Shown in pieces: positions 3,353 through 6,576 of a DNA stretch of 64,000 nucleotides (the stretch's first letter is position 1; each line of letters opens with the position of its first letter). The notes beneath the pieces were generated by a model. The model saw nothing but the letters and a program-made list of their open reading frames with translations. It made no database searches and had not been told where the DNA came from. This DNA comes from an uncultured Pelagibacteraceae bacterium. Lineage in GTDB: Bacteria > Pseudomonadota > Alphaproteobacteria > Pelagibacterales > Pelagibacteraceae. The translations under genes were made by a program, and so were the position numbers. The stretch spans positions 23,964 to 87,963 of the forward strand of contig CACEHK010000002.1 in assembly GCA_902559305.1 (NCBI GenBank), read 5' to 3'.

Positions 3353-3730
3353 TTAATAAAGTGTTTGTATAACTTTTTTTACTTTTTCCTCGCCATCGGG
3401 CACAATTTTATTCACAAATGCATGACATGAATCTGTCTTTGCTTTATCATACTTAGATCCATAATATTTATCCACCCCTTTGTTCACTCCATCATCCCAC
3501 TCTTTTTCTTTAATACCTATTTCTAAAGCATAAGTTTTTAAAACTTTAACCGATGCCATAGATTTTTCTTTCATACTGTATTCAAATTCTTCTCCACTAG
3601 GTAGAAAATAATTTGCCATATAAATACCACTACAGTCATAAGCTTTTTTTTTGTCAGCATCTGACATGCCAGCTAATGCAATGTTTGATAAAAATAAACT
3701 TGATAAAATAATAAATAATAATTTTTTCAT
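3353..3730 (-). CDS. Hypothetical secreted protein
   Basis: 125 aa with signal peptide; two Cys in the mature part. Confidence 0.6.
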   Translation of the reverse strand: MKKLLFIILSSLFLSNIALAGMSDADKKKAYDCSGIYMANYFLPSGEEFEYSMKEKSMASVKVLKTYALEIGIKEKEWDDGVNKGVDKYYGSKYDKAKTDSCHAFVNKIVPDGEEKVKKVIQTLY

Positions 3731-4035
3731 TACATATCCATCTTAGTTAATTCCCAAGCGGTCATACTGTTTACACACTCATCAAAAATTGGTTTTCCAA
3801 CTGGATGTGTTCCAGACACCAATTGTTTCATTGCATCTACATTATGAACATGTACTTTAAACATTATTCCACCTTTATCAGGTGTTACTGAAGCAATAGT
3901 TTTTTCTGGATAAGCTGCTGATTTTCTTACACTCATTCCCTCATCAGATTGCATCCAACCCATGAATTTTTCAAGCTTACCATCTTTTAAATCAACATAT
4001 ACTAACATTTCTTTTTCCATTTTAATTCCTTTCAA
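3730..4035 (-). CDS. Hypothetical protein (ferredoxin-like fold suspected)
   Basis: 101 aa; overlaps neighbour by 1 nt. Start may be the internal ATG (MEKEMLVY). Confidence 0.5.
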   Translation of the reverse strand: MKGIKMEKEMLVYVDLKDGKLEKFMGWMQSDEGMSVRKSAAYPEKTIASVTPDKGGIMFKVHVHNVDAMKQLVSGTHPVGKPIFDECVNSMTAWELTKMDM

Positions 4036-4107: not shown

Positions 4108-5109
4108 TTATATCCAATCAGGAAATGGGAGACCTTTTTCTTGTAGAAAAGATTTATTGAACATCTTTGAGTTGTATTTGTCAGATTTGTCGCACAAAAT
4201 TGTTACTATAGTTTTTCCTGGACCAAGTTCTTTTCCTAATCTAATTGCACCGGCAATATTAACCCCACAACTTGTGCCAAGACTTAAACCTTCATTTTGA
4301 ATTAGATCATATAGTATTGGTAAAGACTCATGATCACTTATTGAAAAAGCGCCATCTATTTTAGCTTCGGCAAAATTTGCTGTTACTCTGCTTGAGCCAA
4401 TTCCTTCTGTGATTGAGCCGCCTTCACTTTTTAACTCACTATTTGTTATATAATTATAAAGCGCAGATCCCGCTGGGTCTGATAGATAAATTTTAATATC
4501 TTTATTCTTTTCTTTTAAATAACTGCTCACTCCTCCAATAGTTCCACCTGTTCCTGAAGAACATACAAAACCATCAATTTTACCATCTGTTTGTTCCAAA
4601 ATTTCAGGTCCAGTTGTTTCATAATGGCCTTTAGCATTTGCCGTGTTATCAAATTGATTAGCCCAGACTACTCCATAATTATTTGAACTTTTAAGTTCGT
4701 CAGCTAATCTTCCAGCAACTTTTACATAATTACCATCATCTTTATATGGTTTAGGTGGAACCAATCTTAAATCAGCACCAATATTTTTTAGCATATCTTT
4801 TTTTTCTTGTGTTTGATTATCATTCATCACAATTATTGTTTTATAACCAATTGAGTTTCCAATTAAACATAAACCGATTCCAGTATTTCCTGCAGTTCCT
4901 TCAACTATTATTCCACCTTTTGAAATTAATTTTTTTTCTTCTGCATCTTTAATTAAAGCAAGAGCAGCTCTGTCTTTTACTGAACCTCCCGGATTTAAAT
5001 ATTCTGCTTTACCATAAATATTACATCCTGTTATCTCTGATGCTGCCTTAAGTTTTATTAAAGGAGTATTTCCAATTCCTTCTACAAAATTATTTTGAGA
5101 ATTTTTCAT
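4108..5109 (-). CDS. cysK: Cysteine synthase (PLP-dependent)
   Basis: GNTPLIKLK, NPGGSVKDRAA, GTAGNTGIGL, SSGTGGTIGGV. Confidence 0.9.
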   Translation of the reverse strand: MKNSQNNFVEGIGNTPLIKLKAASEITGCNIYGKAEYLNPGGSVKDRAALALIKDAEEKKLISKGGIIVEGTAGNTGIGLCLIGNSIGYKTIIVMNDNQTQEKKDMLKNIGADLRLVPPKPYKDDGNYVKVAGRLADELKSSNNYGVVWANQFDNTANAKGHYETTGPEILEQTDGKIDGFVCSSGTGGTIGGVSSYLKEKNKDIKIYLSDPAGSALYNYITNSELKSEGGSITEGIGSSRVTANFAEAKIDGAFSISDHESLPILYDLIQNEGLSLGTSCGVNIAGAIRLGKELGPGKTIVTILCDKSDKYNSKMFNKSFLQEKGLPFPDWI

Positions 5110-5675
5110 TAATTATTTCCATTAGATATACCATACGGTTTAAACTCATCTGTTGCTGTACCAACATTTTTTGCAGGTATACCAACCATTACTGCTTTTT
5201 CAGGAACATCTTTTGTTACAACGGCATTTGCTCCTATCTTTGCATTTTTACCAACTACTACAGGCCCTAAAACTTGTGCACCTGAACCTACAACTACATT
5301 GTCCATTAAAGTTGGATGTCTTTTAACTTCTCTTTGTTCATTTGAATTTATACTTGGTGAAATCCCTCCCAAAGTTGCCATATGATATATTGTAACATTA
5401 TCACCAATCTCTGAAGTTTCACCAATAACTACTCCCATACCATGATCAATGAATAAATTTTTACCTATTTTTGCTTTTGGATGTATTTCTATTCCAGTTA
5501 AAAATCTTGAAAATTGAGAAATTATTCTTGCGATTAAATCAAATTTAGCAACTGAAAAAAAATTTGCAATTTTATGAAAAAAAACTGCTTTAACACCTGG
5601 GTAAGTTAATATTACACTTAACTTTGATTTCGCAGCTGGATCTCTACTAATTATCGATTCTAAAAATTCATTCAT
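5109..5675 (-). CDS. cysE: Serine O-acetyltransferase
   Basis: [41 protein letters not shown]...[20 protein letters not shown] hexapeptide repeats. Confidence 0.92.
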
Positions 5676-5710: not shown

Positions 5711-5830
5711 TTAGCTGTTACAACAACAGCTACCTGATGTAGGATTGCAAGAGCATTCTTTGCTTCCGTCACAAGAGCATCCATCGTATGTACAGTTCGT
5801 ACATTTACATTTTGGGTTATTGCAAACCAT
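5711..5830 (-). CDS. Cys-rich 39-aa metallothionein-like micro-protein
   Basis: Translated by hand: [39 protein letters not shown]; 11 Cys in 39 aa with CxC/CxxC/CCC arrangement. Below the 60-aa ORF-track cut-off. Confidence 0.7.
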
Positions 5831-5883
5831 ATATATTATAATAATTACTGTGTTAAAAATTACAAGGTCAATTTAGCCGCAAA

Positions 5884-6576
5884 CTATAACTGATTAATTG
5901 TAAGACCTTTTAAGTTTGCAGGAACAGCTATATCCATCATTTTTGGATTTGCTAAATTAAGATTATTCATTATCTCAGCGTATTCCTCTTTTGAACCCAC
6001 TTGTAATCTTGGATTATTATTTTTTTCATTTTCAATTGTTGAGTATTTTTTTCCATTATAATCATGAGCAGGATATACTAATGTTTTTTCTGGTAACTTT
6101 AATAATTTATTGAATAGAGAGTCATAAGCATCATATGAACTTCCATTTTGAAAATCTGTTCTTCCAGTTCCATTTATTAAAAGAGTATCGCCAGTAAAAA
6201 CTCTATCATTCATTAAATAACTATAAGAACAATCTGTATGACCTGGAGTATAAATTGCCTTTAGTTCAATATTTTCTACATTTATTTTTTCGCTATCTTT
6301 AATTTTTAAATCAATTACTTCTGACTTAGAATTTTCTCCCATAATCCTTATACAGTTTGTTCTTTTATTAAGTTCATTTAATCCTGTGATATGATCAGCA
6401 TGAATATGGGTATCTATAACTTTTACTAATTTTAGTTCTAATTTTTCCAAAGTTTTTAAATACTTGTTTGTATGTTCTATAACAGGATCAATTATTAATG
6501 CTTCTCTACCTTTGCCGCTAGATATAATGTAAGTGTAGGTTGAAGATTTTGTATCAAATAGTTGTTCAAATATCAT
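5884..6576 (-). CDS. MBL-fold hydrolase, ETHE1/persulfide-dioxygenase-like
   Basis: THIHADHITG, YTPGHTDCSYSYLM, FTGDTLLINGTGRTDFQNG, VYPAHDYNG. Confidence 0.85.
   Translation of the reverse strand: MIFEQLFDTKSSTYTYIISSGKGREALIIDPVIEHTNKYLKTLEKLELKLVKVIDTHIHADHITGLNELNKRTNCIRIMGENSKSEVIDLKIKDSEKINVENIELKAIYTPGHTDCSYSYLMNDRVFTGDTLLINGTGRTDFQNGSSYDAYDSLFNKLLKLPEKTLVYPAHDYNGKKYSTIENEKNNNPRLQVGSKEEYAEIMNNLNLANPKMMDIAVPANLKGLTINQL

Follow-up and report, generated by a model that had tools for sequence, protein, structure and literature searches.

The stretch analysed here (64,000 nucleotides, hereafter the window) belongs to an uncultured Pelagibacteraceae bacterium and contains, on its minus strand, an intact but unannotated open reading frame of 39 codons (positions 5711 to 5830; ATG at 5830, TAA at 5713-5711), which encodes a micro-protein with 11 cysteines and is conserved in Pelagibacter. 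This micro-gene lies downstream of an MBL gene of the ETHE1/persulfide dioxygenase type (5884 to 6576) and 35 nt upstream of cysE (5109 to 5675), encoding a serine O-acetyltransferase recognized above cut-off by TIGR01172 and NF041874. It is followed by cysK (4108 to 5109), encoding cysteine synthase A and recognized above cut-off by NF007989, and all four genes are carried by the same strand. An earlier examination of these letters without database searches, hereafter the sequence-only reading, had already placed a co-oriented 39-codon ORF between an ETHE1-like gene and cysE-cysK, and each of these elements was recovered in window coordinates. As judged by PDB matches, the MBL product is closer to ETHE1 and persulfide dioxygenases (4ysb, E 6e-68; human ETHE1 4chl, E 2e-51) than to the hydroxyacylglutathione hydrolase GloB (E 1e-13).

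With profile searches, the micro-gene was detected in 81 of 399 Candidatus Pelagibacter genomes, as a single copy in each, and in one genome of the sister genus; samples of the class (337) and the phylum (399) gave no more members, just weak unrelated matches. When 101 genomes comprising the window's own and its relatives were searched, 17 had a match at E<=1, and 16 of these proved to carry the family, at the locus seen in the window; the G040 match and an additional one in G009 were rejected as family members. In SAR11, the neighbours of the micro-gene are the ETHE1-type MBL gene, a peroxiredoxin gene, cysE and cysK, and in each of the 104 family-bearing loci read other than the window, cysE was directly downstream. 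Scanning named genomes via the MBL gene provided 80 Pelagibacteraceae loci, mostly from single-cell genomes, including 72 in which MBL adjoins cysE. The peptide was found between these two genes in 50 loci (match-to-match gap of about 200 nt, with one of 323 and one of 258) and was missing from the other 22 (match-to-match gap of 24-52 nt, corresponding to an actual MBL-cysE spacer of 20-48 nt). On a tree of MBL and cysE (72 rows), its presence takes 3-4 changes, a pattern suggesting mostly vertical inheritance with a few gains or losses. The micro-gene is absent from several single-contig genomes of the genus and from Ca. P. ubique SCGC AAA795-F16 (L087). Genes other than cysE follow MBL in L019, L020, L025, L026, L042, L077 and L078, with a homologue of the window ORF 3730-4035 occupying this position in L020 and L025. 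In the sister genus (L122:1501-2592), promoter-like boxes, peptide and cysE stay together and an MsrB-like gene comes next, while MBL and cysK are not adjacent. The SAR11 peptides range from 36 to 44 residues in length, and a 44-aa variant (L093), with an extra Cys-containing insertion and 13 or more cysteines, shows that the body of the micro-protein tolerates an added unit.

Sequence variation within the family is characteristic of a translated product. Across 38 distinct members of the 39-aa form, the 11 Cys positions are near-invariant and their codons change almost solely by synonymous substitution (pN 0.004 versus saturated pS). The dN/dS ratio was 0.16 overall and 0.44 at non-Cys codons in this set, for which pS is near saturation and ratios are thus approximate; the corresponding values for a 36-aa subfamily (28 members) were 0.15 and 0.26. 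The comparison of homologues by which the sequence-only reading proposed to judge the ORF points to purifying selection. A chance ORF or a non-coding spacer would be short, unannotated and missing from family libraries, as is the case here, but this explanation is refuted by conservation, by the synonymous-only change of Cys codons and by clean presence/absence, and its probability is negligible. Because it occurs in 81 of the 399 genus genomes, in a constant place upstream of cysE and with near-invariant Cys codons, the ORF is, on sequence grounds, a real gene under protein-level selection. Two-fold codons ending in C are enriched in the family compared to the genes of the window (AAC, 0.43 versus 0.16; GAC, 0.43 versus 0.17; TGC, 0.38 versus 0.19), and four-fold codons exhibit no shift. 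The shift at two-fold codons exceeds that of EF-Tu in the same genome. High expression of the micro-gene is suggested, and put no higher than this, because the C-ending shift of EF-Tu is smaller and concerns few codons.

The micro-protein falls outside known families, since no model of Pfam, NCBIfam (none at E<=1 in either) or PHROG matched it, and a PDB profile search with the peptide retrieved chance matches to LDL-receptor and mucin alone. It was not matched by the profile of bacterial metallothioneins (PF02069), and 26 aligned members displayed no invariant His and no invariant hydrophobic column. Both results bear out the view that this is a separate family and not one of the SmtA type. 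Histidine and hydrophobic residues as in SmtA are more common among bacterial metallothioneins (PMC10612145). With SmtA/BmtA, the micro-protein shares a very small size, a high cysteine content, CxC/CxxC motifs and a plausible metal-thiolate cluster. Unlike them, it has no conserved His or zinc-finger-type part, is shorter, has a body with repeated CxC and, in SAR11, ends in CCC and stands before cysE. Small size, cysteine richness and conserved CxC/CxxC arrays are nevertheless traits of the functional metallothionein class, and the micro-protein may plausibly bind metals or thiols. Literature searches found no description of a SAR11 metallothionein, only incidental co-mentions, and nothing linking metallothioneins to phage auxiliary metabolic genes.

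Relatives of the micro-protein were found in marine viruses. Searches of phage and plasmid records by tblastn with the peptides gave nothing useful, a result that does not demonstrate absence, as queries this rich in cysteine are probably masked by the low-complexity filter. A scan of IMG/VR with a degenerate DNA pattern covering the N-terminal half identified 48 loci, nearly all of them short Cys-rich ORFs. A second pattern added further loci, and 84 viral loci with 59 distinct peptides were retained, one or two of which (e.g. L170) may be chance matches. SAR11 and viral peptides share the spacing CxNxxCxCxNC..DxCxC.....CxC, and the viral consensus, MxCxNPECxCENCTCDPCxCTxxNPCGC, is in the same register from C3 to C28. 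N12, D16, C26 and C28 are common to viral peptides even though the first scan pattern did not require them. Alignment of the SAR11 and viral profiles with hhalign gave a probability of 97% and an E-value of 2e-11, both inflated by the pattern-based choice of the viral set. For this reason, viral peptides were compared to shuffles keeping all Cys and N5: real sequences scored 50.9 bits versus 42.8, and for 9 of 17 peptides the real score was higher than that of any of the 30 shuffles.

These viral contigs (L139-L186, L191-L283) encode a family of 20-60-aa Cys-rich peptides with the consensus NPxCxCENCTCDPCxC....PCGC and no PHROG or Pfam model. From our own reading of the neighbouring structural and nucleotide-metabolism ORFs, the hosts of the peptide genes are probably T4-like marine phages, and nucleotide matches of the contigs are to cyanophages and other marine phages. 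The viral half would thus be a widespread, unnamed micro-protein family of these phages. Most phage peptides have C3, N5, C8, C10, N12, C13, D16, C18, C20, C26 and C28 spaced identically to those of SAR11, from which they differ by the usual presence of C15, a PCGC ending, the lack of a CCC tail and, usually, a Shine-Dalgarno start. They lie near Fe-S carrier or structural genes and never near cysE; neither cysE nor cysK nor MBL was near any copy at the viral loci. Because phage homologues occur away from cysE, a metal- or thiol-binding role gains in plausibility, and the body is best interpreted as having a metallothionein-like function at the protein level. The region from C3 to C28 would most likely bind a small number of metal ions (Zn, Cd or Cu) or act as a thiol buffer, in either case through CxC/CxxC thiolates.

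The phage neighbourhoods also raise the possibility that the body carries or chaperones Fe-S clusters or sulfane sulfur and is linked to Fe-S assembly in phages and to cysteine/persulfide metabolism in SAR11. Genes for IscU, IscA or Nfu were identified near 24 of the 84 viral family loci, all within about 2 kb in the available DNA, and near none of 57 other viral loci, a control set unmatched for phage type. Their identities come from reading translations, one being labelled NifU-like in a public record of a phage. In one viral group the start of Nfu overlaps the end of the peptide, and Fe-S neighbourhoods were noted at L152:6396-5859 on the minus strand, L144, L205 and L221, with the Nfu overlap, IscA and IscU. 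The SAR11 neighbours, namely the ETHE1-type MBL, peroxiredoxin, cysE, cysK and the MsrB-like gene of L122, are in line with such a function, but the viral controls are unmatched and adjacency is not function, and we regard a sulfur or Fe-S carrier as quite improbable.

While the sequence-only reading was right that the gene is real, under selection, outside known families and not of the SmtA/BmtA type, it had overlooked a promoter, the probable position of the micro-gene as first gene, its cysteine tail and an RNA hairpin. On the minus strand, a putative -35 element (TTGTAA, 5860 to 5865) and a putative -10 element (TATTAT, 5838 to 5843) precede the micro-gene. Comparison of 83 distinct flank pairs revealed that T, T and G at -34, -33 and -32 before the ATG are kept in 98, 90 and 88%, and that TATAT at -12 to -8 is kept in 93-96%. 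A strict promoter consensus matched 37 of 72 upstreams, 35 of these matches ending 4-9 nt before the ATG. In a regional scan, the number of promoter sites was no higher than in shuffles, so that the case for a promoter rests on conservation and not on consensus matching. Given the conserved positions of the two boxes, the nominal start point is the ATG, and the transcript is inferred to begin there or within a few nucleotides of it, as a leaderless mRNA. A Shine-Dalgarno core was present in 0 of 72 SAR11 upstreams versus 39 of 58 in phages. The micro-gene would accordingly be the first cistron of a transcript presumably shared with cysE and cysK.

At the other end of the micro-gene, codons 35-37 form a Cys-Cys-Cys tract, TGT TGT TGT, in the window (5720 to 5728, minus strand). 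A terminal CCC or CCCC run was found in 104 of 105 SAR11 members and in 0 of 84 viral ones; its codons are mostly TGT (95 of 114), those of scattered cysteines being more mixed. RNA folding pairs this run with the last codons and the stop, in a predicted hairpin with an 8-bp stem and a 5-nt loop (5712 to 5732, minus strand in the window). Compared to recodings that keep the protein, the hairpin of 62 distinct tails has a mean z of -1.63, with p<0.1 in 61%, and that of the window reaches a z of -4.1 against synonymous recodings. Three control windows inside the same ORFs gave z values of +0.5, -0.24 and -0.95. Hairpins as a general feature of SAR11 gene ends were rejected, since 69 control gene ends of the window had a mean z of 0.02, with p<0.1 in 9%. 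In an alignment of 30 tails without gaps, 89.6% of cells are paired, and changes on both sides of a pair number 11 versus 2.5 in shuffles, counts in which the relatedness of sequences is only partly corrected for. Pair 5-21 occurs as G-C, C-G or A-U, and pairs 3-23 and 4-22 break in about one-quarter of sequences. The hairpin folds in another register in the 36-aa clade and is weak or absent in CCCC-tailed clades.

Several observations bear on how this structure might act on the downstream genes. A classical intrinsic terminator was sought by scanning the window, where none was found, and is not supported there; most clades have no U-tract after the hairpin, and some have a T-run at this place. 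The gap between stop and cysE, folded alone, has no consistent structure (median z -0.18), and the cysE start, 25-44 nt downstream, is not visibly covered by the hairpin and has no obvious Shine-Dalgarno sequence. A search of Rfam around the locus returned no match.

The combination of tail, hairpin and cysE recalls the polycysteine leaderless ORFs of Mycobacterium smegmatis (Canestrari 2020, as summarised in PMC9031893), the architecture of which is also treated in PMC9094748. The likeness lies in a leaderless start, inferred in SAR11, in a polycysteine run near the 3' end (104 of 105 members), in the position as first cistron ahead of cysteine genes, with cysE immediately following at all family-bearing loci, that of the sister genus included, and in an RNA structure over the run, indicated by recoding and covariation and weak in CCCC clades. 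The SAR11 micro-gene differs in belonging to another phylum, in its single copy per genome, in its protein-conserved and phage-shared body, and in a hairpin that covers its own stop and not any recognizable RBS of the gene that follows. As attenuation is generally understood, the hairpin would stay open for as long as a ribosome is stalled on the run. The CCC codons of SAR11 would provide the 5' arm and loop of a hairpin closing over the stop codon: with scarce charged tRNA-Cys, ribosome stalling within the tract would prevent its closure and cysE-cysK expression would rise, while with plentiful cysteine it would form and expression would fall, the direction and the level (transcription or translation) of such control being conjectural. 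We read the tail as a putative cysteine sensor because it is found only before cysE, because its hairpin is selected, and because the architecture is mycobacterial-like. The conserved promoter, the probable leading position, the overlap of CCC tail and hairpin, and the lack of this tail in viral homologues suggest that the micro-gene may also, or instead, control cysE-cysK in response to cysteine.

An ORF that serves purely as a cysteine-sensing leader, in which only the codons matter and the peptide is a by-product, would account for the leaderless promoter, the terminal polycysteine tract with its hairpin, the adjacent cysE and the resemblance to mycobacterial polycysteine ORFs. Such an ORF is improbable: residues well away from the tract (Cys 3, 8, 10, 13, 18, 20, 26 and 28, as well as N5) are invariant, dN/dS is below 1 at non-Cys codons, and the body is kept in phages without cysE. 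The opposite view, of a purely metallothionein-like protein, accommodates these phage homologues, which have neither cysE nor a CCC tail, as well as the purifying selection on non-Cys residues and the hint of high expression in C-ending two-fold codons. In that case, the downstream position of cysE-cysK would ensure that cysteine synthesis accompanies that of a 28%-Cys product, and the hairpin would tune mRNA stability or lower cysE relative to an abundant small protein. This view is rather unlikely, as it leaves unexplained a CCC tail strictly limited to cysE-linked members, a hairpin placed exactly on the tract and an association with cysE that holds at all loci.

The reading that we favour, though we give it slightly less than an even chance, joins a phage-shared metallothionein-like body to a cysteine-sensing tail ahead of cysE-cysK. 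In this combined reading, the retention of the body by phages that lack a neighbouring cysE is the reason for taking it as a metal-thiolate protein. Metal binding and cysteine sensing are compatible, and we hold them jointly with moderate confidence. We regard the micro-protein as a new family that, in SAR11, probably serves in addition as a leader sensing cysteine for cysE-cysK; the specific proposal of a dual-function micro-gene whose own translation senses cysteine for cysE-cysK, through tail and hairpin, is put forward tentatively, as a serious possibility with the balance somewhat against it. SAR11 bacteria have few known regulators and tiny spacers. If the combined reading is true, a 39-codon gene that both holds metals or thiols and reads the cysteine supply would be an economical form of control in very abundant cells. 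To our knowledge, no cysteine-responsive polycysteine attenuator is known outside mycobacteria, and this one would be the first beyond that group, with a leader peptide that is itself a conserved functional protein.

In SAR11 genomes without the micro-gene, the cysE ATG is often preceded, at a distance of about 6-10 nt, by a TATATA box, as in the peptide-less L053, L055-L064, L069, L084, L092, L095 and L098, which suggests that cysE itself is leaderless in these genomes. Because peptide-less genomes carry this box, the micro-gene may have been placed between an old promoter and cysE.
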